Part shown: positions 10,666 through 17,602 of the stretch, in pieces
How the letters are laid out: each line of letters starts with the position of its first letter
Numbering within the stretch: the stretch's first letter is position 1
Assembly: GCA_019695335.1 (NCBI GenBank)
Contig: JAIBAF010000024.1
Coordinates: forward strand, 1-47,027
Direction of reading: 5' to 3'
Length of the DNA: 47,027 bases
Source of the DNA: a bacterium
Lineage (GTDB): Bacteria > CLD3 > SB21
Program-made: the position numbers and the translations under genes
The notes under the pieces: model-generated
The model's input: the letters and a program-made list of their open reading frames with translations, nothing else
Database searches by the model: none
Told to the model about the DNA's origin: nothing

Positions 10666-12030
10666 TTATAATGAGTTGATGAATTGCAGCAACGCCGAGC
10701 GTTGTTCTTTCGTCAAATGTTTAAAAATCGAAACTGATTCCTGCGCTTCACCACCGTGCCATAGTATTGCTTCTTCAATATTACGCGCACGGCCATCATG
10801 TAGAAAGTAAGTGTGTCCATTCACAACCTCGCTTAATCCGATTCCCCACAGTGGCGGTGTGCGCCATTCACGCCCGTTGGCCAAAAAGTCACTTCGATTA
10901 TCGGCTAAACCTTCTCCCATATCATGTAATAACATATCGGTATAGGGATAAATAACTTGGTTTGAAACTTCCGGCACGCCATTCAGATTATTTGTTCTAA
11001 ACGGAGCAACATGACAGTTTTGGCAAAGCGCTTGTTCGAATAATTTCTTTCCCTCACGAACGGATTGATCATTTTGATTGCGTGGAGCCGGCACGCCTAA
11101 AGTTTGCGTGTAAAAGGTCACGGCGGCAATTGTCAAAGAATCGATTTCAGGATCATCGGGAAGCGTATCATTGTTTGTTTGGCCAAAAGAATTCTCAAGC
11201 GGATGAACGTATGAAGTAATACCCATATCTTGTTGATACGCCGTAGCATTTTGCTGTAATAGATTTGGCTGATTGGCTTTCCATCCGAAACGGCCTAAAG
11301 AATTTTTTTGGTTTACGATATCCCACACATAATTCGGCCGTCCTGAAATCCCGTCCTGATCGGTATCGTTCTCATCCGCCAAATCAAGAATATCCGATTC
11401 GGATATAGCTTCTAATAAACCCAGGCCAAAAACGGATCGCGCAAATCGTGGCGATAACAGAAAATTTGATGGCAAATTAGTATAGGTTTGTGTGACGGTA
11501 TAGGCCGGTTGCAATAGTGAATAAGGATTTCCATCCGGATAAAGACTGTCAATTTCTGTATAATTCACCGTTACATTTCCTTCTGCGATAAAGCCTTCGA
11601 CAGAACGAACCTGCAATTGGCCTCCGAAACCATCAATCCCTACTGGTCCCCCGTGTTCGTCTGAGCCGGGTATACTCAATCGAAATAATAATGAACCGGT
11701 ACTTCCTTCTACAAACGGAAGGCCGCGACCGTCGCGCACATGACAATTGATACAAGAAGTATTGTTAAAGACAGGTCCAAGTCCGCCATTTACGCCTGCA
11801 GGCGCTGTGACAAAAATTTGTTCGAATGCCGCATCACCGTCCGCGTGCTGTTCAATCCCGATCCCGGAAAGATTGGGAGACGGGGTTGAATACGCATTGC
11901 TGCCGCTTACGAAAACGGTGGTAGCACCGCCCGCTAAATCCGGTGAACCGTCCGCATCTGAATCATTGGTTTCGCAGCCAAAAATAAAAACCAACAGCAC
12001 GCAGGAAGCGAGTTCAAATTTGAATTTCAT
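10666..12030 (-). CDS. Di-heme oxidoreductase-family lipoprotein (DUF1111/thiol oxidoreductase-like)
   Basis: A 454-residue exported lipoprotein: the signal peptide ends at FIFGC with lipid-attachment Cys19. Two c-type heme motifs are present, TSCINCH (Cys93, Cys96, His97) and ALCQNCH (Cys336, Cys339, His340). The pattern NTSCINCHVRDGRG...PFVEGS and a C-terminal THxPxLWGIG-like WRTPPLWGIGLSEVVNG...LHDGRARNIEEAILWHGGEA is characteristic of the di-heme 'thiol oxidoreductase' family related to bacterial cytochrome c peroxidases. The family is regularly found next to imelysin genes in iron-responsive clusters, and may act in iron redox chemistry in the periplasm. Its ATG overlaps the imelysin stop (ATGA), which indicates translational coupling. 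It is the last gene of the iron operon. Confidence 0.88.
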   Translation of the reverse strand: MKFKFELASCVLLVFIFGCETNDSDADGSPDLAGGATTVFVSGSNAYSTPSPNLSGIGIEQHADGDAAFEQIFVTAPAGVNGGLGPVFNNTSCINCHVRDGRGLPFVEGSTGSLLFRLSIPGSDEHGGPVGIDGFGGQLQVRSVEGFIAEGNVTVNYTEIDSLYPDGNPYSLLQPAYTVTQTYTNLPSNFLLSPRFARSVFGLGLLEAISESDILDLADENDTDQDGISGRPNYVWDIVNQKNSLGRFGWKANQPNLLQQNATAYQQDMGITSYVHPLENSFGQTNNDTLPDDPEIDSLTIAAVTFYTQTLGVPAPRNQNDQSVREGKKLFEQALCQNCHVAPFRTNNLNGVPEVSNQVIYPYTDMLLHDMGEGLADNRSDFLANGREWRTPPLWGIGLSEVVNGHTYFLHDGRARNIEEAILWHGGEAQESVSIFKHLTKEQRSALLQFINSL

Positions 12031-13103
12031 TGTACCCTGTCAATAATTGGTTGAATTTCTGATTCTAAGGTTTGTTGAATGGCTCGGACTGCATTTTGCG
12101 CTGCTTCAATCGACGAACGATTGTTGGTAATAGCATCGGTAAAGGTTCCGTTCGTTCCGCCGATCGCACCGATGAGTTCAATGGCTTCATCCAATTCGTC
12201 TTTCAAATGTTCATCCAAATTAGCGTCGACTTGATTGATTAAATGTGAAATTCCCACAAGGTTTCCTGTTCCCAGTCCCGTATATTCTCCTAAATAAAGA
12301 TTGCGAATACTGCGAATATTATTTTGAAAATCGGCCTTTGAATTATTACTGAAACGTGATTCTTCCAAGGTTACATCGCTTTGGGCAAACGGATCCTGAA
12401 TTTTACCGTTTGCAACTTCATCGGCAATCGCAATCATTCCTTGCAAGATTTCCTGCAATGCAGCTTTATGGCTAATGTATAAACTGGAAGGGCTTCCGGC
12501 ATTTTTTAATTGCGAAGTGTAATTTTCGCCCGATGGAGCCCAGCTCATTGCAAGATCGTGTGTTTCTGATTTAAAACTCTGGACGCATGCAACAAGATAA
12601 TCAAACTCGCGCGTGGTAAATGACCCAAGGGTTTTCGGAGTAGCTTCATCCCCAAATAGCAAATATTCAATGGTATGAAATCCTTTAAGAGTGCCTTCAA
12701 GTCCATTAATATATGATTCATTCAAAGTTGCACTTCCGGCCAGAACATTGTCAAGGTCGACAACATTGACAGGCCAACTGTCGATATCAGGATCGATGCC
12801 TTTTGTGTCAACCGGACCGAAAAGGAATCCTTCCGACATTTCCCATGGAGCCCGCGCCGCGACCCATGCTGAACGAGCGGCTTCGAGATGTGGCTCGGTG
12901 GGATCGGAGGACAAAGTTTGAACACTGGTCAACAGCAAACCAGCTTTGGTATCAAGATCTTCGTAAGTTTGCAAAATCACTGAATCGGCAACATTAGCCA
13001 GCAAAGCCGTGGCGTCATATTCAATCGGAGGAAGTGAATCATCATTGCCGCAACTCGTTATCAACAAGAATGCAGACGTCAACATAAAAAACCGCTTCAT
13101 CAT
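12027..13103 (-). CDS. Imelysin-family (M75) iron-associated lipoprotein
   Basis: 358 residues from the chosen start. The reading frame extends to 13145, but an AAAGGAG site (13116-13110) sits 6 bases before the ATG at 13103-13101, so MMKRFFML is taken as the N-terminus. The signal peptide ends with the lipobox LITSC (Cys18). The hallmark GxHxxE motif of the imelysin/EfeO fold is seen in LKGFHTIEYLLFGDE, and the protein is otherwise helical. Despite the peptidase label (M75), imelysins are best known as iron-regulated periplasmic or surface proteins of iron uptake. It lies 31 bases after the porin gene and overlaps the di-heme lipoprotein by ATGA, as in known imelysin-di-heme clusters. Confidence 0.87.
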   Translation of the reverse strand: MMKRFFMLTSAFLLITSCGNDDSLPPIEYDATALLANVADSVILQTYEDLDTKAGLLLTSVQTLSSDPTEPHLEAARSAWVAARAPWEMSEGFLFGPVDTKGIDPDIDSWPVNVVDLDNVLAGSATLNESYINGLEGTLKGFHTIEYLLFGDEATPKTLGSFTTREFDYLVACVQSFKSETHDLAMSWAPSGENYTSQLKNAGSPSSLYISHKAALQEILQGMIAIADEVANGKIQDPFAQSDVTLEESRFSNNSKADFQNNIRSIRNLYLGEYTGLGTGNLVGISHLINQVDANLDEHLKDELDEAIELIGAIGGTNGTFTDAITNNRSSIEAAQNAVRAIQQTLESEIQPIIDRVQ

Positions 13104-13134
13104 AACAAGCTCCTTTGATATTTTGCATGGAGAA

Positions 13135-14358
13135 CTAAAATTCAAATCCCATTCCTAATGAAAAAGTATTCTCATTTTGAGAGATTCCCAATTTGCGCAT
13201 TGAATATTGTGTTTTGAAAACGATATATTTTTTCAACGGTTGATAATTCAATCCCGCCGTGTATACTTTCCGCTCCCAGCGCGGATTATTAAAAATATTG
13301 CCGGAAGTTTTATACATTGTGTCATAAAACTCATAGCGTCCAAATAAAATCAATTCGCTGTCAGTCGGATGTTCGCCTCCTACATAATGCAGAAAATCAA
13401 ATAGCTCCAATCCTGCTTCGATGTAATAGCCTAATGCTTGGCTTCCGATAGGTGAGCGTTTGACATTGAGATTGTTGGATAAATTGCGATTGGCTTCTGA
13501 AATTTTATCGGCATTTTCCAAATGGCCCAGAATGACCATGGATCGAAAAATAACCGGCTCATATTCAAGCGCAACATGGGATTCGATTATACTCACATGC
13601 CCGTCGACCGTAATATCCGGTTTAGGGCGATTATGAGTGGAATTTCCGTAATACGCAGAAACGCCGATAAGATTTTCTGTGCCCCAGGCATAGTCCAATC
13701 GTCCATTGATGGCCATATCCTCGGCATTTACATTTTCAAAACGCAGTTGTTGTCCGCGAACAATCCATGAAGACGAGCTGAACCCGGTTGCATCAAGGCC
13801 ATTGACCAGCGAGAAAGTATATTTCCAATTTTGTGCCAGGCTGCCGAAAATCTGGATCCCGTTTTCATACCAATTCGTCGGGATGATCGACGATTCGGTT
13901 TCATTGCGGGTAGTCGTAAAATATTCGGACGGTTCGTCAAGTTGTGAATTAAGTCCTATCGGAAGCTTAAATCGTCCAATACGGAAATTCAAATACGGTC
14001 TGTACTGATAAACAAAATTCATTTGCTCTAATTTAACTTCGCCGCCTTTTTCAATTTCAGTTTCAAATTCACCGAATTCTTCAAATTTATCAAACTCCAT
14101 TGTAACACCTGTTCCGCCGTGTTCGATTTCGATTTCGGATTCAATTTTCATGCGTTCATTTAATTTATAGGACGGATATAAAGTCAAACGCTCGAGATCA
14201 ATGACATTTCGCTTCTGCGGATCGGTTTGCCAGTCAAAAGCAAAATAATTCATCGTGCCATAGCCGCGCAGATGAAATTTTTTAATGTTAAAAGTTGAAT
14301 CGGTTTCAGAGGCATGTAAAACCAAAGGTGTGATACACAACAATAGCCAGCGGTACAT
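13135..14358 (-). CDS. Outer-membrane beta-barrel porin
   Basis: 407 residues with a signal peptide (MYRWLLLCITPLVLHA, cleavage predicted after LHA). The mature protein is a series of alternating amphipathic strands and ends in ...SLGMGFEF, the aromatic C-terminal signature used by the BAM machinery. Phrases such as FRIGRFKLPIGLNSQ, IGVSAYYGN and YYIEAGLELFDFLHYVGGEHPTDSELILFGRYEFYDTMY resemble phosphate-selective porin (OprO/OprP-like) and related Bacteroidota porins. The ribosome site AGGA lies 8 bases before the ATG. Sitting between the small proteins and imelysin, it probably supplies outer-membrane passage for the substrate of this iron operon. The ion specificity is inference. Confidence 0.8.
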   Translation of the reverse strand: MYRWLLLCITPLVLHASETDSTFNIKKFHLRGYGTMNYFAFDWQTDPQKRNVIDLERLTLYPSYKLNERMKIESEIEIEHGGTGVTMEFDKFEEFGEFETEIEKGGEVKLEQMNFVYQYRPYLNFRIGRFKLPIGLNSQLDEPSEYFTTTRNETESSIIPTNWYENGIQIFGSLAQNWKYTFSLVNGLDATGFSSSSWIVRGQQLRFENVNAEDMAINGRLDYAWGTENLIGVSAYYGNSTHNRPKPDITVDGHVSIIESHVALEYEPVIFRSMVILGHLENADKISEANRNLSNNLNVKRSPIGSQALGYYIEAGLELFDFLHYVGGEHPTDSELILFGRYEFYDTMYKTSGNIFNNPRWERKVYTAGLNYQPLKKYIVFKTQYSMRKLGISQNENTFSLGMGFEF

Positions 14359-14395: not shown

Positions 14396-14572
14396 TTACT
14401 CCAATATGGATTCATAAATCCGTGAATATTCGTCAGGATGACGTTTTACAGTTTTTAGATAAAGATTAACTTCTCTTCTTTTTAATTTATCGTTGTAAGT
14501 TCTGAGAGCAGCCAAAACCGGGCAATCTTTACATGCCTTTTTTTCTTCATAATTTTTACAACATTTTTTCAT
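14396..14572 (-). CDS. 58-residue cysteine-rich small protein
   Basis: A short gene starting at the ATG 14572-14570 and ending at the TAA 14398-14396. The protein begins MKKCCKNYEEKKACKDCP, so it has Cys4, Cys5, Cys14 and Cys17, followed by a basic helical tail (KRREVNLYLKTVKRHPDEY) that ends ESILE. There is no signal peptide. Its ATG overlaps the stop of the preceding 106-residue gene (ATGA), which strongly supports translation. The clustered cysteines suggest binding of iron, zinc or an iron-sulfur cluster in the cytoplasm. Membership of the iron operon makes iron handling or sensing plausible, but no known family was recognised. Confidence 0.65.
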   Translation of the reverse strand: MKKCCKNYEEKKACKDCPVLAALRTYNDKLKRREVNLYLKTVKRHPDEYSRIYESILE

Positions 14573-14889
14573 GATAGTAGTCCTTGCGATGCAACAGGCA
14601 TTACCGCTTCACCTTGTGCGATCAGGCTATTCAAGTGAAATAATTCTAGCCCGGTAAACGCGAGTTGAACGTTATTGGCCGATGTTTCCACAAAAATATT
14701 TTTGTTGGTTCTGTTGTTCGGATCCATCAGACCATATTTTCTGATGACTGCTTGACGAAAATGAGTAAATTCTACCGCTGTTAGCGAGAGTACGACCGTT
14801 CCAAAACCGATTTGCAGCCTGTGGCAAGTCTCACAATGTGCGACATAGCCGAAATCCGATTGTGCGAGTATGGTGTGTTTGCATTTCAT
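14569..14889 (-). CDS. 106-residue CxxC protein of the iron operon
   Basis: The frame is open to an ATG at 14907, but MKCKHTILAQSDFGYVAHC at 14889 is preferred. It lies 4 bases after the stop of the 36-residue gene, and the motif C-x-H...HCETCHRLQIGFG resembles the start of a family of small uncharacterised proteins common in Bacteroidota. Cys3, His5, Cys19 and Cys22 would make a zinc or iron ribbon. CETCH looks like a heme motif, but without a signal peptide it cannot be matured as a c-type cytochrome. The rest is an alpha/beta fold ending near EAVMPVASQGLLS. It overlaps the 58-residue gene by ATGA. Confidence 0.65.
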   Translation of the reverse strand: MKCKHTILAQSDFGYVAHCETCHRLQIGFGTVVLSLTAVEFTHFRQAVIRKYGLMDPNNRTNKNIFVETSANNVQLAFTGLELFHLNSLIAQGEAVMPVASQGLLS

Positions 14890-14893
14890 AACA

Positions 14894-15004
14894 TTATTCC
14901 ATTGCAAAAAACATTGGAATTAAAATAATAGCAAGCCAGATCAATCCTTTAATCAGAAAAAACAACAGGCCTATTAAACCTATTTTTTTAATCCATTCTG
15001 TCAT
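14894..15004 (-). CDS. 36-residue single-span membrane protein
   Basis: ATG at 15004-15002, TAA at 14896-14894. The product begins MTEWIKKIGLIGLLFFLIKG and continues with a hydrophobic stretch ending in IPMFFAME: one transmembrane helix of about 25 residues behind a short Lys-rich, Trp-containing N-terminus. The ATG overlaps the stop of the heme monooxygenase gene (TGATG), and the next gene follows 4 bases later, so translation within the operon is well supported. Function is unknown; a small membrane partner of a transporter or an assembly factor are possibilities. Confidence 0.6.
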   Translation of the reverse strand: MTEWIKKIGLIGLLFFLIKGLIWLAIILIPMFFAME

Positions 15005-15333
15005 CATCGCGTTAAAACTTCATAGGTTTTAAAGCTGGATTGCATCGGAGGAGTATCCCCGCGCTGAATCGCTTGTTTGATATCGTCGAATCCGCGCCGA
15101 TGACCTTCGATAAATTCCGGAGAAGAAGTCCATTGCTTAAAAGCATTTTCGTTTTCCCAAAAACTCACGATTAGGTAATCATCTCCATCTTTGCTCGGCT
15201 TCAGAACTTGCATATCAACGAATCCAGGCATACGATCAATAGCATGCGCCCGTGACTTAAAAAGCTCTTCGAATTTTTGTTTATAATTTTTTTGGCATGA
15301 AATGTAGTTAATCGCAACAAAATTATGGCTCAT
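15004..15333 (-). CDS. IsdG/HmoA-like heme-degrading monooxygenase (ABM domain)
   Basis: 109 residues, the length of the dimeric ABM-fold heme oxygenases. The catalytic triad of IsdG/IsdI (Asn7, Trp67, His77) appears to be kept: Asn9 in FVAINYIS, Trp68 in AFKQWTSSPEF and His78 in EGHRRGF. MPGFVDMQVLKPSKDGDDYLIVSFWE is the standard middle strand pattern. The enzyme would open heme in the cytoplasm and release iron. The ribosome site GAGGA lies 3 bases before the ATG. It is the first gene of the operon, directly behind the Fur-like palindrome array, so iron repression is expected. Some ABM proteins are not heme oxygenases; the triad and context favour heme here. Confidence 0.78.
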   Translation of the reverse strand: MSHNFVAINYISCQKNYKQKFEELFKSRAHAIDRMPGFVDMQVLKPSKDGDDYLIVSFWENENAFKQWTSSPEFIEGHRRGFDDIKQAIQRGDTPPMQSSFKTYEVLTR

Positions 15334-15369: not shown

Positions 15370-15384
15370 TGAGACCCATTCTCA
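15370..15384. promoter_or_regulatory. Degenerate Fur-like box 1
   Basis: TGAGACCCATTCTCA matches the 7-1-7 palindrome TGAGAATnATTCTCA except for two bases in one half-site. It is the box closest to the heme monooxygenase gene, centre 15377. Confidence 0.5.
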
Positions 15385-15400
15385 TCTATAATTCCAAAAA

Positions 15401-15431
15401 TAATGCTCAAAATAAAACCTACTGAGCATTA
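15401..15431. repeat. Interleaved inverted repeat IR1 (GCTC family)
   Basis: Arms TAATGCTCA (15401-15409) and TGAGCATTA (15423-15431) are perfect 9-base complements around a 13-base AT-rich loop. The right arm runs directly into Fur-like box 2. Confidence 0.7.
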
Positions 15432-15449
15432 TTGAGAATAATTCTCAAT
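15431..15449. promoter_or_regulatory. Fur-like box 2, perfect 9-1-9 palindrome
   Basis: ATTGAGAATAATTCTCAAT is a perfect palindrome around position 15440. Its core TGAGAATnATTCTCA differs from the 7-1-7 Fur consensus TGATAATnATTATCA only at one symmetric position. A Fur-family repressor is the likely ligand; PerR, Zur or Irr-like relatives cannot be excluded. Confidence 0.75.
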
Positions 15450-15465
15450 TAAAAAGTTAAAAATT

Positions 15466-15484
15466 ATGCTCTGATTTAGAGCAT
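15466..15484. repeat. Interleaved inverted repeat IR2 (GCTC family)
   Basis: ATGCTCT (15466-15472) and AGAGCAT (15478-15484) are perfect arms around a 5-base loop. It lies between Fur-like boxes 2 and 3, echoing IR1 and IR3. Confidence 0.65.
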
Positions 15485-15500
15485 TTACAAAGAATAAATC

Positions 15501-15527
15501 AAGTATTGAGAATCATTCTCAATACTT
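15501..15527. promoter_or_regulatory. Fur-like box 3, perfect 13-1-13 palindrome
   Basis: The half-site AAGTATTGAGAAT is perfectly mirrored around position 15514, giving a 27-base palindrome containing the core TGAGAATCATTCTCA. It is the longest and most symmetric operator in the array. Confidence 0.78.
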
Positions 15528-15538
15528 AAACCAAAATT

Positions 15539-15562
15539 ACGCTCATTGATCTTAATGAGCGT
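15539..15562. repeat. Interleaved inverted repeat IR3 (GCTC family)
   Basis: ACGCTCATT (15539-15547) and AATGAGCGT (15554-15562) are perfect 9-base arms around a 6-base loop. It lies between Fur-like boxes 3 and 4. Confidence 0.7.
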
Positions 15563-15568
15563 TGAGTA

Positions 15569-15587
15569 ATTGAGAATAATTCTCAAT
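15569..15587. promoter_or_regulatory. Fur-like box 4, perfect 9-1-9 palindrome
   Basis: Identical in sequence to box 2 (ATTGAGAATAATTCTCAAT), centred on 15578. It is nearest the carB-like gene on the plus strand, so it could also influence that gene. The rest of the gap to 15790 is AT-rich and shows no clear promoter. Confidence 0.75.
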
Positions 15588-15790
15588 CAAAAGGACGTCG
15601 TAATTATATATATAAAAACCTGCTTTGTCAAGAATTTTCATGTGTGATGACAAAAATTTTACGAAGTTTTCACGCTATTTCTTTGAGAATTTTTGAAAAT
15701 CACTTGCTACAAAGAGCGTTTATTTGTAGTTTACAACCCGCCGTAAAGAGTTTATTTATAAGTCTTTCAATTCATAAAGGAGTTATTGGA

Positions 15791-17602
15791 GTGTCCACAT
15801 TCAGTCTCGATGTATTGAAGAAAAAAATTTCTCCTGAACTTTTACTCCAAGCCAAACAACTCGGTTATTCTGACAAACAATTAGCTTTTATTTGGAAAAC
15901 GGATGAACTAATAATTCGCGAATTGAGAAAATCGCACGGTGTTCGCCCGGTTTATAAAACAGTTGATACATGCGCGGCTGAATTTGAGTCAGAAACGCCC
16001 TATTTCTATTCGACGTACGAAATAGAAACTGAAAATATCGATTCCGGAAAACGAAAGATCATTATTTTGGGAGGGGGGCCCAATCGAATCGGCCAAGGAA
16101 TAGAATTTGATTATTGCTGTGTGCATGGCGTTTATGCTCTGCAGGAAGAGGGTTTTGAGGTGATCATGATCAACTGTAATCCCGAAACTGTGAGTACGGA
16201 CTACGATACATCCGACCGGCTGTTTTTTGAACCGCTTACATTCGAAGATGTGATGAATATCATCGAGGCTGAAAAACCTGAAGGTGTGATCGTTCAATTC
16301 GGCGGACAGACACCTTTGAAATTGGCGATCCCACTCATGAAAGCCGACGTAAAAATACTTGGGACGTCTCCGGAAAATATCGATGCGGCGGAGGACAGAA
16401 AAAAATTCGGTGCTTTACTTGAACGCCTGAAAATCCAATGTCCCGCATACGGTACGGTATCATCATTTGCAGAAGCGCGCGATATTGCAACCCGGATCGG
16501 CTATCCAGTTCTCGTCAGACCTTCGTATGTTTTGGGTGGACGGGCGATGGAAATCGTCTACGACGAAGAAGCGCTCGAACGCTACATGGTACATGCAATT
16601 AACGTATCGCCCGAACATCCGATATTGGTGGATAAATTTCTCGTGGATGCGGTCGAGTTTGACGTCGATGCATTGTGCGACGGTAAAGATGTTTTTATCG
16701 GCGGCGTGATGCAGCATATCGAAGAAGCCGGTATTCATTCGGGCGACAGTTCATGCGTATTGCCGCCTTATTCGGCGTCGCAAGACGTTGTCGATAAATT
16801 GCGTCAATTTACACGGCAACTTGCCAAAGAATTGAACGTGATCGGTCTAATTAACATTCAGTATGCTGTACAAAATGGCGACGTATATGTATTGGAGGTT
16901 AACCCTCGTGCATCACGTACAGTGCCGTTTGTCAGCAAAGCTATCGGTGTTCCGCTTGCTAAGATGGCAGCAAAAATCATGGTCGGGAAAACATTAAAAG
17001 AGCTTGGCCTTTCGAAGGAAATTGTTCCGGCTTATACATCTGTAAAAGACCCGGTTTTTCCTTTTAGTAAATTTCCGGGCATCCGAATGTATCTTGGGCC
17101 GGAAATGCGCTCGACCGGAGAAGTGATGGGTATTGCCGATACTTTTCCTAAAGCTTTGGCTAAAGCACATCTTGCAGCGGGTATGCAAATGCCGACAAGC
17201 GGAGGGGTTTTTATTACCGTCAATGACCGGGATAAATCGAAAATTGTCCCTATTGCCAAAGATCTGCAAAATCTTGGATTTGTTATCTACGCCACGGATG
17301 GGACTTCTAAAATTTTGAATGACAATGGTATTGACACAAAACACGTTTTTAAATTACAGGAAGGCCGCCCGCACGTTATTGACCGGATCAAAAACAAAGA
17401 AATTCAAATCGTTATCAATACTCCGACCGGTAAAGCTGCAAAACTTGACGAACGTTATATCGGGGAAGCGGCGATGCTGTATAAAATTCCGATGATCACT
17501 ACAATCCCGGGAGCCATCGGTTTGGTGAAAGGCATTCGGGCCATTGCCGAAGAAAAACTCTCGGTAACCAGTATTCAAGAATATCATACTAACCTCAGTT
17601 AA
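15791..17602 (+). CDS. carB: Carbamoyl-phosphate synthase large chain, C-terminal half (split CarB)
   Basis: The frame is open from 15644, but an AAAGGAG site (15776-15782) lies 8 bases before the in-frame GTG at 15791, giving 603 residues. Full CarB has about 1070. Present are the end of the oligomerisation domain (SPELLLQAKQLGYSD...GVRPVYKTVDTCAAEF), the second ATP-grasp synthetase unit (GGGPNRIGQGIEFDYCC, YPVLVRPSYVLGGRAMEIVYD, LEVNPRASRTVPFVSKA) and the MGS allosteric domain (GGVFITVNDRDKS...DGTSKIL). The N-terminal synthetase half is absent from the window. The clean start and ribosome site suggest a naturally split enzyme like CarB2 of some archaea and Aquifex, not a decayed gene. Role: carbamoyl phosphate for pyrimidines and arginine. 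Confidence 0.85.
   Translation: MSTFSLDVLKKKISPELLLQAKQLGYSDKQLAFIWKTDELIIRELRKSHGVRPVYKTVDTCAAEFESETPYFYSTYEIETENIDSGKRKIIILGGGPNRIGQGIEFDYCCVHGVYALQEEGFEVIMINCNPETVSTDYDTSDRLFFEPLTFEDVMNIIEAEKPEGVIVQFGGQTPLKLAIPLMKADVKILGTSPENIDAAEDRKKFGALLERLKIQCPAYGTVSSFAEARDIATRIGYPVLVRPSYVLGGRAMEIVYDEEALERYMVHAINVSPEHPILVDKFLVDAVEFDVDALCDGKDVFIGGVMQHIEEAGIHSGDSSCVLPPYSASQDVVDKLRQFTRQLAKELNVIGLINIQYAVQNGDVYVLEVNPRASRTVPFVSKAIGVPLAKMAAKIMVGKTLKELGLSKEIVPAYTSVKDPVFPFSKFPGIRMYLGPEMRSTGEVMGIADTFPKALAKAHLAAGMQMPTSGGVFITVNDRDKSKIVPIAKDLQNLGFVIYATDGTSKILNDNGIDTKHVFKLQEGRPHVIDRIKNKEIQIVINTPTGKAAKLDERYIGEAAMLYKIPMITTIPGAIGLVKGIRAIAEEKLSVTSIQEYHTNLS

Follow-up and report, generated by a model that had tools for sequence, protein, structure and literature searches.

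Serial Fur-type boxes alternating with terminator-like hairpins in the predicted leader of a leftward bacterial operon

In the stretch of 47,027 nucleotides analysed here (the window), a near-consensus promoter is followed by four Fur-type boxes and three hairpins that resemble weak terminators, arranged in alternation upstream of an operon that runs leftward. The most favoured interpretation, to which we give about as much credence as doubt, is that these elements would form a Fur-controlled 5' leader, in which serial operators block the polymerase at the places where weak terminators release it.

The box array and its assignment to Fur

The four boxes located by the initial annotation were recovered by a motif search of the window, with their centres at 15377, 15440, 15514 and 15578 and intervals of 63, 74 and 64, as were its three palindromes (9-1-9, 13-1-13 and 9-1-9) and one degenerate copy. 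They are palindromic and are not assigned to a strand. The first in transcription order (ATTGAGAATAATTCTCAAT, 15569-15587), which the initial annotation had numbered box 4, is conserved in the related genomes G001, G004, G005 and G006. It is followed by box 3 at 15505-15523, which is the centre of the 13-1-13 palindrome, by box 2 at 15431-15449 and, last before the gene, by box 1 at 15370-15384, which reads TGAGACCCATTCTCA and has two mismatches. This last box is degenerate in the genome under study (G000) only, and both G001 and G003 carry TTGAGATTCAGTCTCAA at the equivalent site.

The exact 15-mer TGAGAATnATTCTCA occurs at 15433-15447, 15507-15521 and 15571-15585. Within the window it is confined to the array, and the genome-wide search that the initial annotation had suggested returned the same three copies and no other in 3.76 Mb. 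Two copies with one mismatch were found in the genome, both intragenic, as were the other copies that were inspected. When up to three mismatches are allowed, the window contains 13 matches, against 4.3 +/- 2.1 expected, and this number was reached in none of 100 shuffles. The box array is not the product of chance. The phasing, taken by itself, is a weaker argument: the probability that three intervals fall within 1 bp of whole turns is approximately 0.013, a post hoc value based on the 5 of 21 residues for which an integer lies no more than 1 bp from a multiple of 10.5.

Several lines of evidence connect the motif with Fur. The genome has one Fur-family gene (G000:C34), whose product has Fur proteins as its best PDB matches (E 1.7e-29). 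The three exact copies of TGAGAATnATTCTCA fit the 7-1-7 Fur consensus (TGANAAT-N-ATTNTCA), and the consensus for the bacterial family is TTGAGAnnnnnTCTCAA. In G000-G004 and G006, a single site that matches this relaxed motif lies directly upstream of feoA-feoB and faces a divergent IscA/HesB-like gene (the feo and iscA names come from a reading of the translations, without a family search); G005 also has a matching site. A reversed control pattern, searched alongside the relaxed motif in five genomes of the family, gave no match. Because there is a single Fur-family gene and the same motif stands beside feoAB, the assignment of the motif to Fur is well supported at the sequence level, which agrees with the initial description of these elements as Fur boxes, and Fur would be the protein that binds them.

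The motif was also observed at two other places. At L098:3017-3033 (G000:C29:21316), TTGAGATTCTCTCTCAA lies directly upstream of a gene similar to the second one in the G004 array operon, and this gene is possibly a relocated member of the operon with its own Fur box. Two divergent genes for ABM-domain proteins in the distant genome G024 are separated by a single TGAGACTCAGTCTCA palindrome (L074:6640-6654); judging from this sequence, the motif accompanies this gene family beyond the bacterial family as well.

The promoter and the leftward operon

The initial annotation gave an incomplete account of the array, in which the promoter, the three spacer hairpins and the leftward target were overlooked. 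The promoter, TTGACA-17-TATAAT, was found by a consensus scan at 15631-15603 on the minus strand, where it matches the consensus at 12 of 12 positions. It sits directly upstream of the first box on the operon strand, and its -35 hexamer is separated from this box by 46 nt in five of five species. Transcription would start near 15596. Since the next gene downstream of the promoter begins at 15333 (minus strand), all four boxes, which lie downstream of the consensus promoter, would be included in a transcribed leader of about 260 nt when counted from this predicted start site.

All of the operon genes are on the minus strand. The first encodes an ABM-domain (HmoA-like) protein of 109 aa (15004-15333; Pfam PF03992, E 3.5e-19) and is followed by a small ORF of 37 aa from the ORF list, which overlaps its neighbor (14894-15007), and by genes for a DUF6686 protein (14569-14889; Pfam PF20391, E 1.6e-9), a porin-like protein (13135-14358; 32% identity, E 3.8e-34), an imelysin (Peptidase_M75, 12027-13109; Pfam PF09375, E 2.9e-63), and a di-haem oxidoreductase (DHOR, 10666-12030; Pfam PF06537, E 1.2e-108). 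We take these genes to be an iron- or haem-type set, and the leader would thus be that of an iron operon. In G001 and G004-G006, the gene that comes first after the array resembles that of the porin-like protein. The DUF6686 gene resembles, by eye only, the gene beside the Fur-box promoter in the operon of a sister family. The porin-imelysin-DHOR set (10666-14358) is found in G000, and imelysin is also found in genomes of the sister family. As a conserved target of the array, imelysin was rejected, since it is absent from the other six genomes of the family; its presence behind the conserved leader is, judging from this distribution, a lineage-specific gain or loss.

The initial annotation had drawn attention to the closeness of box 4 to the divergent carB-like gene. 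Regulation of carB by the array was rejected, because the promoter and the U-tracts point away from this gene and because, in genus g4, the array lies away from carB. The target of the array is the leftward operon, and carB, on the plus strand, is simply its neighbor. The carB frame itself (15791-17602) encodes, with 603 aa, the C-terminal half only. Elsewhere in G000 there is another carB-like frame, of about 490 aa (G000:C83:590-1759), and similar frames of about 500 aa occur in the other genomes of the family, while the sister family has a single protein of 1071-1092 aa. In the array-bearing family, carB therefore appears to be split.

Hairpins in the spacers and their conservation

An inverted repeat is present in each of the three spacers between the boxes, and on the operon strand a T-rich tract comes after it. 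All three hairpins are terminator-like and are read on the minus strand: H1 (15539-15562) consists of ACGCUCAUU-AAGAUC-AAUGAGCGU and then AAUUUUGG; H2 (15466-15484) of AUGCUCU-AAAUC-AGAGCAU and then AAUUUUUAAC; and H3 (15399-15433), the 5' end of which overlaps the edge of box 2, of AAUAAUGCUCA and UGAGCAUUAUU separated by 13 nt and followed by UUUGG. In a 700-bp region, a terminator scan identified three sites against 0.2 expected, all on the operon (minus) strand. These sites are H1, H2 and the box-3 palindrome; H3 was picked up by eye, as its 13-nt loop exceeds the limit of the scan. The stems of H1-H3 are short and GC-poor, and with energies of -6.4 to -12.9 kcal/mol and U-runs of mostly 4-8, the hairpins are predicted to be weak to moderate terminators. 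H2 is weak, with three GC pairs in the G000 stem and, in G005, an interrupted U-tract (AATTCTTAA), which suggests that termination there may be poor. For some hairpins, in particular H2 in G004 and G006, the opposite strand has a T-rich tail too.

A search of 386 genomes for two relaxed boxes separated by 33-63 bases gave matches only in this little-studied family, in six of its seven examined genomes; the seventh, G002, which is 85% complete, yielded no array. The alternation of boxes and hairpins was found in five family genomes and at two unrelated chromosomal positions. In g1 the array is beside carB; in g4 it is preceded by a gene identified from its sequence as aldehyde dehydrogenase-like and followed by a porin-FMN_bind-ApbE operon, which suggests that leader and operon stayed together through relocation. 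The array of G003 has three boxes, at intervals of 74/63, and is without recognisable terminators, which indicates that the boxes can work without them.

In the five hairpin-bearing genomes, H1-H3 and their U-tracts on the transcribed strand are conserved, with compensatory changes. An alignment of these genomes (A2) has 91.5% paired cells, compared with 28-55% when the partners are displaced by 1-3 columns. The covariation score was reached by 1 of 500 shuffles, a modest statistic given that the five sequences belong to two clades. Four pairs have changed on both sides, and as 86 of 500 shuffles reach that number, the count alone is unexceptional. The double changes in relatives are C-G to A-U and A-U to G-C in H1, and C-G to U-A in H3, for which G005 shows the intermediate U-G. 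Read on the operon strand, the wobble pairs that were seen are G-U, which favors an RNA of this strand. The arms of the boxes, TTGAGA/TCTCAA, are nearly invariant, as expected of a protein-DNA site; the stems covary, as expected of an RNA.

The hairpins could also act independently of Fur, as elements of RNA stability or pausing or as an attenuator that responds to another factor, with an alternation produced by tandem duplication of a box-hairpin unit. The units are indeed alike (GCTC..GAGC plus AAUUUU), as duplication would give, and the folding of the leader RNA has a z-score of -8.9, although this value is no proof of RNA structure, since palindromic boxes alone lower the energy. However, an Rfam search returned no family at the gathering score, and a conserved start codon with an SD-like sequence was sought and not found, on which ground attenuation by a leader peptide was rejected. 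Independent hairpins also fail to account for a distance that is fixed toward the next box and variable toward the preceding one. This explanation is unlikely.

That distance, counted between the last core C of the hairpin and the first T in the TGAGA box that follows, is 19 nt for H1 and 20 nt for both H2 and H3. It is constant in all five genomes (19-20 nt in 15/15 cases, a count that overstates independence because these genomes are effectively two clades, of 2 and 3 species). In the same spacers, lengths of 5-24 are found for the stretch from box to hairpin and of 15-23 for the hairpin core, and in the middle spacer of g4 the difference between species lies entirely in front of the hairpin. 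The fixed distance thus ties each hairpin to the box downstream.

The distances between boxes follow a looser rule. In transcription order, the intervals are 64/74/63 in G000, 63/74/63 in G001, 74/63 in G003, 62/71/64 in G004, 63/73/64 in G005, and 63/72/64 in G006. The outer ones thus remain at 62-64 in all six array genomes, even when their components change by five or six bases, and the middle one takes values of 74, 74, 74, 71, 73, and 72. The initial annotation had proposed that all intervals are whole helical turns and that the spacing should be kept in relatives while the spacer sequence drifts. The former holds in G000 (63/74/64) and not in G004, where the middle interval is up to 2.5 bp, or about 86 degrees, out of phase; because of this drift from 71 to 74, strict same-face helical phasing does not seem to be conserved among the genomes compared. 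The latter holds for the outer intervals and for G003, which keeps 74/63 with spacers no closer to those of G000 than shuffled sequence, and does not hold for the middle interval. From these comparisons, the hairpin-box constraint and the looser box-box constraint both seem to act.

The main rival explanation gives the box-box constraint the leading role. Fur dimers bound to the four boxes (6, 7, and 6 turns apart) would cooperate in a nucleoprotein complex that wraps or compacts the promoter-proximal DNA, and the hairpins would be secondary. The narrow range of the outer intervals is consistent with such a complex, and so are the totals that are nearly preserved from different components (5+23+20 for spacer 3 in g1, 11+18+20 in g4) and the array of G003, which holds its spacing exactly with unalignable spacers and no hairpins. 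In addition, Fur of H. pylori compacts the arsR promoter through multiple operators (PMC5007355). Against this stands the drift of the middle interval, and the complex does not predict conserved, covarying RNA hairpins or a fixed distance from hairpin to box. As the main function of the array, compaction by Fur is possible but rather improbable; it may nevertheless coexist with terminator gating.

A proposed role for the leader and its relation to known systems

In the favored explanation, that of Fur operators coupled to termination, the near-consensus sigma-70 promoter would start an mRNA whose leader of about 260 nt comprises four Fur operators alternating with three weak terminators. When iron is present, Fur would occupy the boxes. 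At the first of these, about 10 nt beyond the predicted start, bound Fur would hinder initiation or escape. A polymerase that escapes would meet a Fur-bound box just after it has transcribed a hairpin and a U-rich tract, and would be stalled or slowed at a point where the terminator can release it. Intrinsic terminators are expected to release the polymerase 7-9 nt past the stem, and a polymerase at this point would stand just short of the next Fur box. Release at the terminators would also prevent the formation of a queue of polymerases that pushes Fur off. When iron is absent, Fur would leave the boxes, and some of the polymerases would read through the moderate terminators (-6 to -13 kcal/mol) into the operon. 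A more specific form of this proposal gives every repressor-bound operator a terminator of its own, placed 19-20 nt upstream, so that occupancy sets the efficiency of termination stepwise. It is put forward tentatively, as we think it somewhat more probably wrong than right.

Terminators close behind a strong promoter with a Fur box at its start would also be compatible with an iron-starvation small RNA, similar to RyhB or IsrR. The Fur-repressed promoter would then mainly yield short terminated RNAs, with the operon expressed by read-through. Small RNAs controlled by Fur are known, such as the iron-repressed IsrR (PMC9410917). However, the loops and linkers differ between g1 and g4, so that a conserved seed is not apparent, nothing in Rfam attains the threshold, a first product of only some 50-60 nt would result, and the boxes continue far into the leader. 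We regard a small RNA as the least probable of the explanations considered.

Repressors that bind downstream of a promoter, including PurR, GalR, ArsR, CcpA, and CodY, act as roadblocks (PMC10310618). Fur does not figure in the list of roadblock proteins given in that review. A LacI roadblock at 102 bp reduced the very strong lambda pL promoter only 4-fold, as polymerases cooperate, and modeling indicates that single roadblocks fail on strong promoters (PMC4132739). The ability of polymerases from strong promoters to push through single roadblocks would provide a reason to add terminators, and the box-terminator design may be a natural answer to this failure. As predicted for the present leader, the operator of such systems lies downstream of the start and an elongating polymerase is expected to stop. 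They differ in that the stalled polymerase is released by Mfd or Rho, and the available portions of the two papers (PMC10310618, PMC4132739) describe no operator-paired terminator or serial array. Classic attenuators likewise place terminators between promoter and first gene, whereas here no leader peptide, antiterminator, or ligand aptamer was recognised and the regulator sites are DNA palindromes of a repressor.

The closest Fur-dependent parallel is the arsR promoter of H. pylori (PMC5007355). There too, several Fur operators extend over a long stretch that includes the start site, and iron-dependent repression through a higher-order complex has been proposed. In that promoter, the three operators, which are accompanied by NikR sites, span -154 to +40 and are located mainly ahead of and around the start; the four boxes described here are near-identical, all follow the promoter and are interspersed with terminator-like hairpins. 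The view of the initial annotation that the array is more elaborate than a usual Fur operator is supported, and in the open-access literature no matching paper was found on Fur roadblocks or on operators interleaved with terminators.

Among about 85,000 species, 11 stretches contain a pair of exact boxes separated by 35-65 bases, and several of these stretches adjoin Fur-family genes and genes for apparent metal-binding lipoproteins and ABC transporters. In some of them (L024, L030, and others), a promoter-like sequence lies between the two boxes, and in none of the 11 do boxes alternate with terminators. Four of the pairs, from Chloroflexi and Clostridia (L024, L028, L030, and L032), are exact copies of TGAGAATnATTCTCA 50-61 bases apart that adjoin such lipoprotein/ABC transporter genes, joined at some of the loci by a Fur-family gene; each is perhaps a Zur-type double operator. 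On a cyanobacterial contig (L027:367-435), two exact boxes 54 bases apart enclose a strong hairpin (GAGAATTGCTG..CAGCAATTCTC) that has no U-tract.

Roadblocks and intrinsic terminators are, as a rule, regarded as distinct means of halting the polymerase. If the proposal is correct, the leader would represent repressor-dependent intrinsic termination, a direct example of metal-repressor operators and terminators that cooperate in a fixed register. It would illustrate a way to silence a near-consensus promoter, with a very strong promoter shut tightly and a steep response to iron. In the sister family (G007 and G008), similar genes (for a small protein, a porin-like protein, and FMN-linked proteins) also follow a box just past a promoter-like sequence; this box stands alone, some tens of bases from the first start codon, without array, long leader, or hairpins. 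The array in one family and these single-box versions in its sister family may thus be viewed as an evolutionary series.
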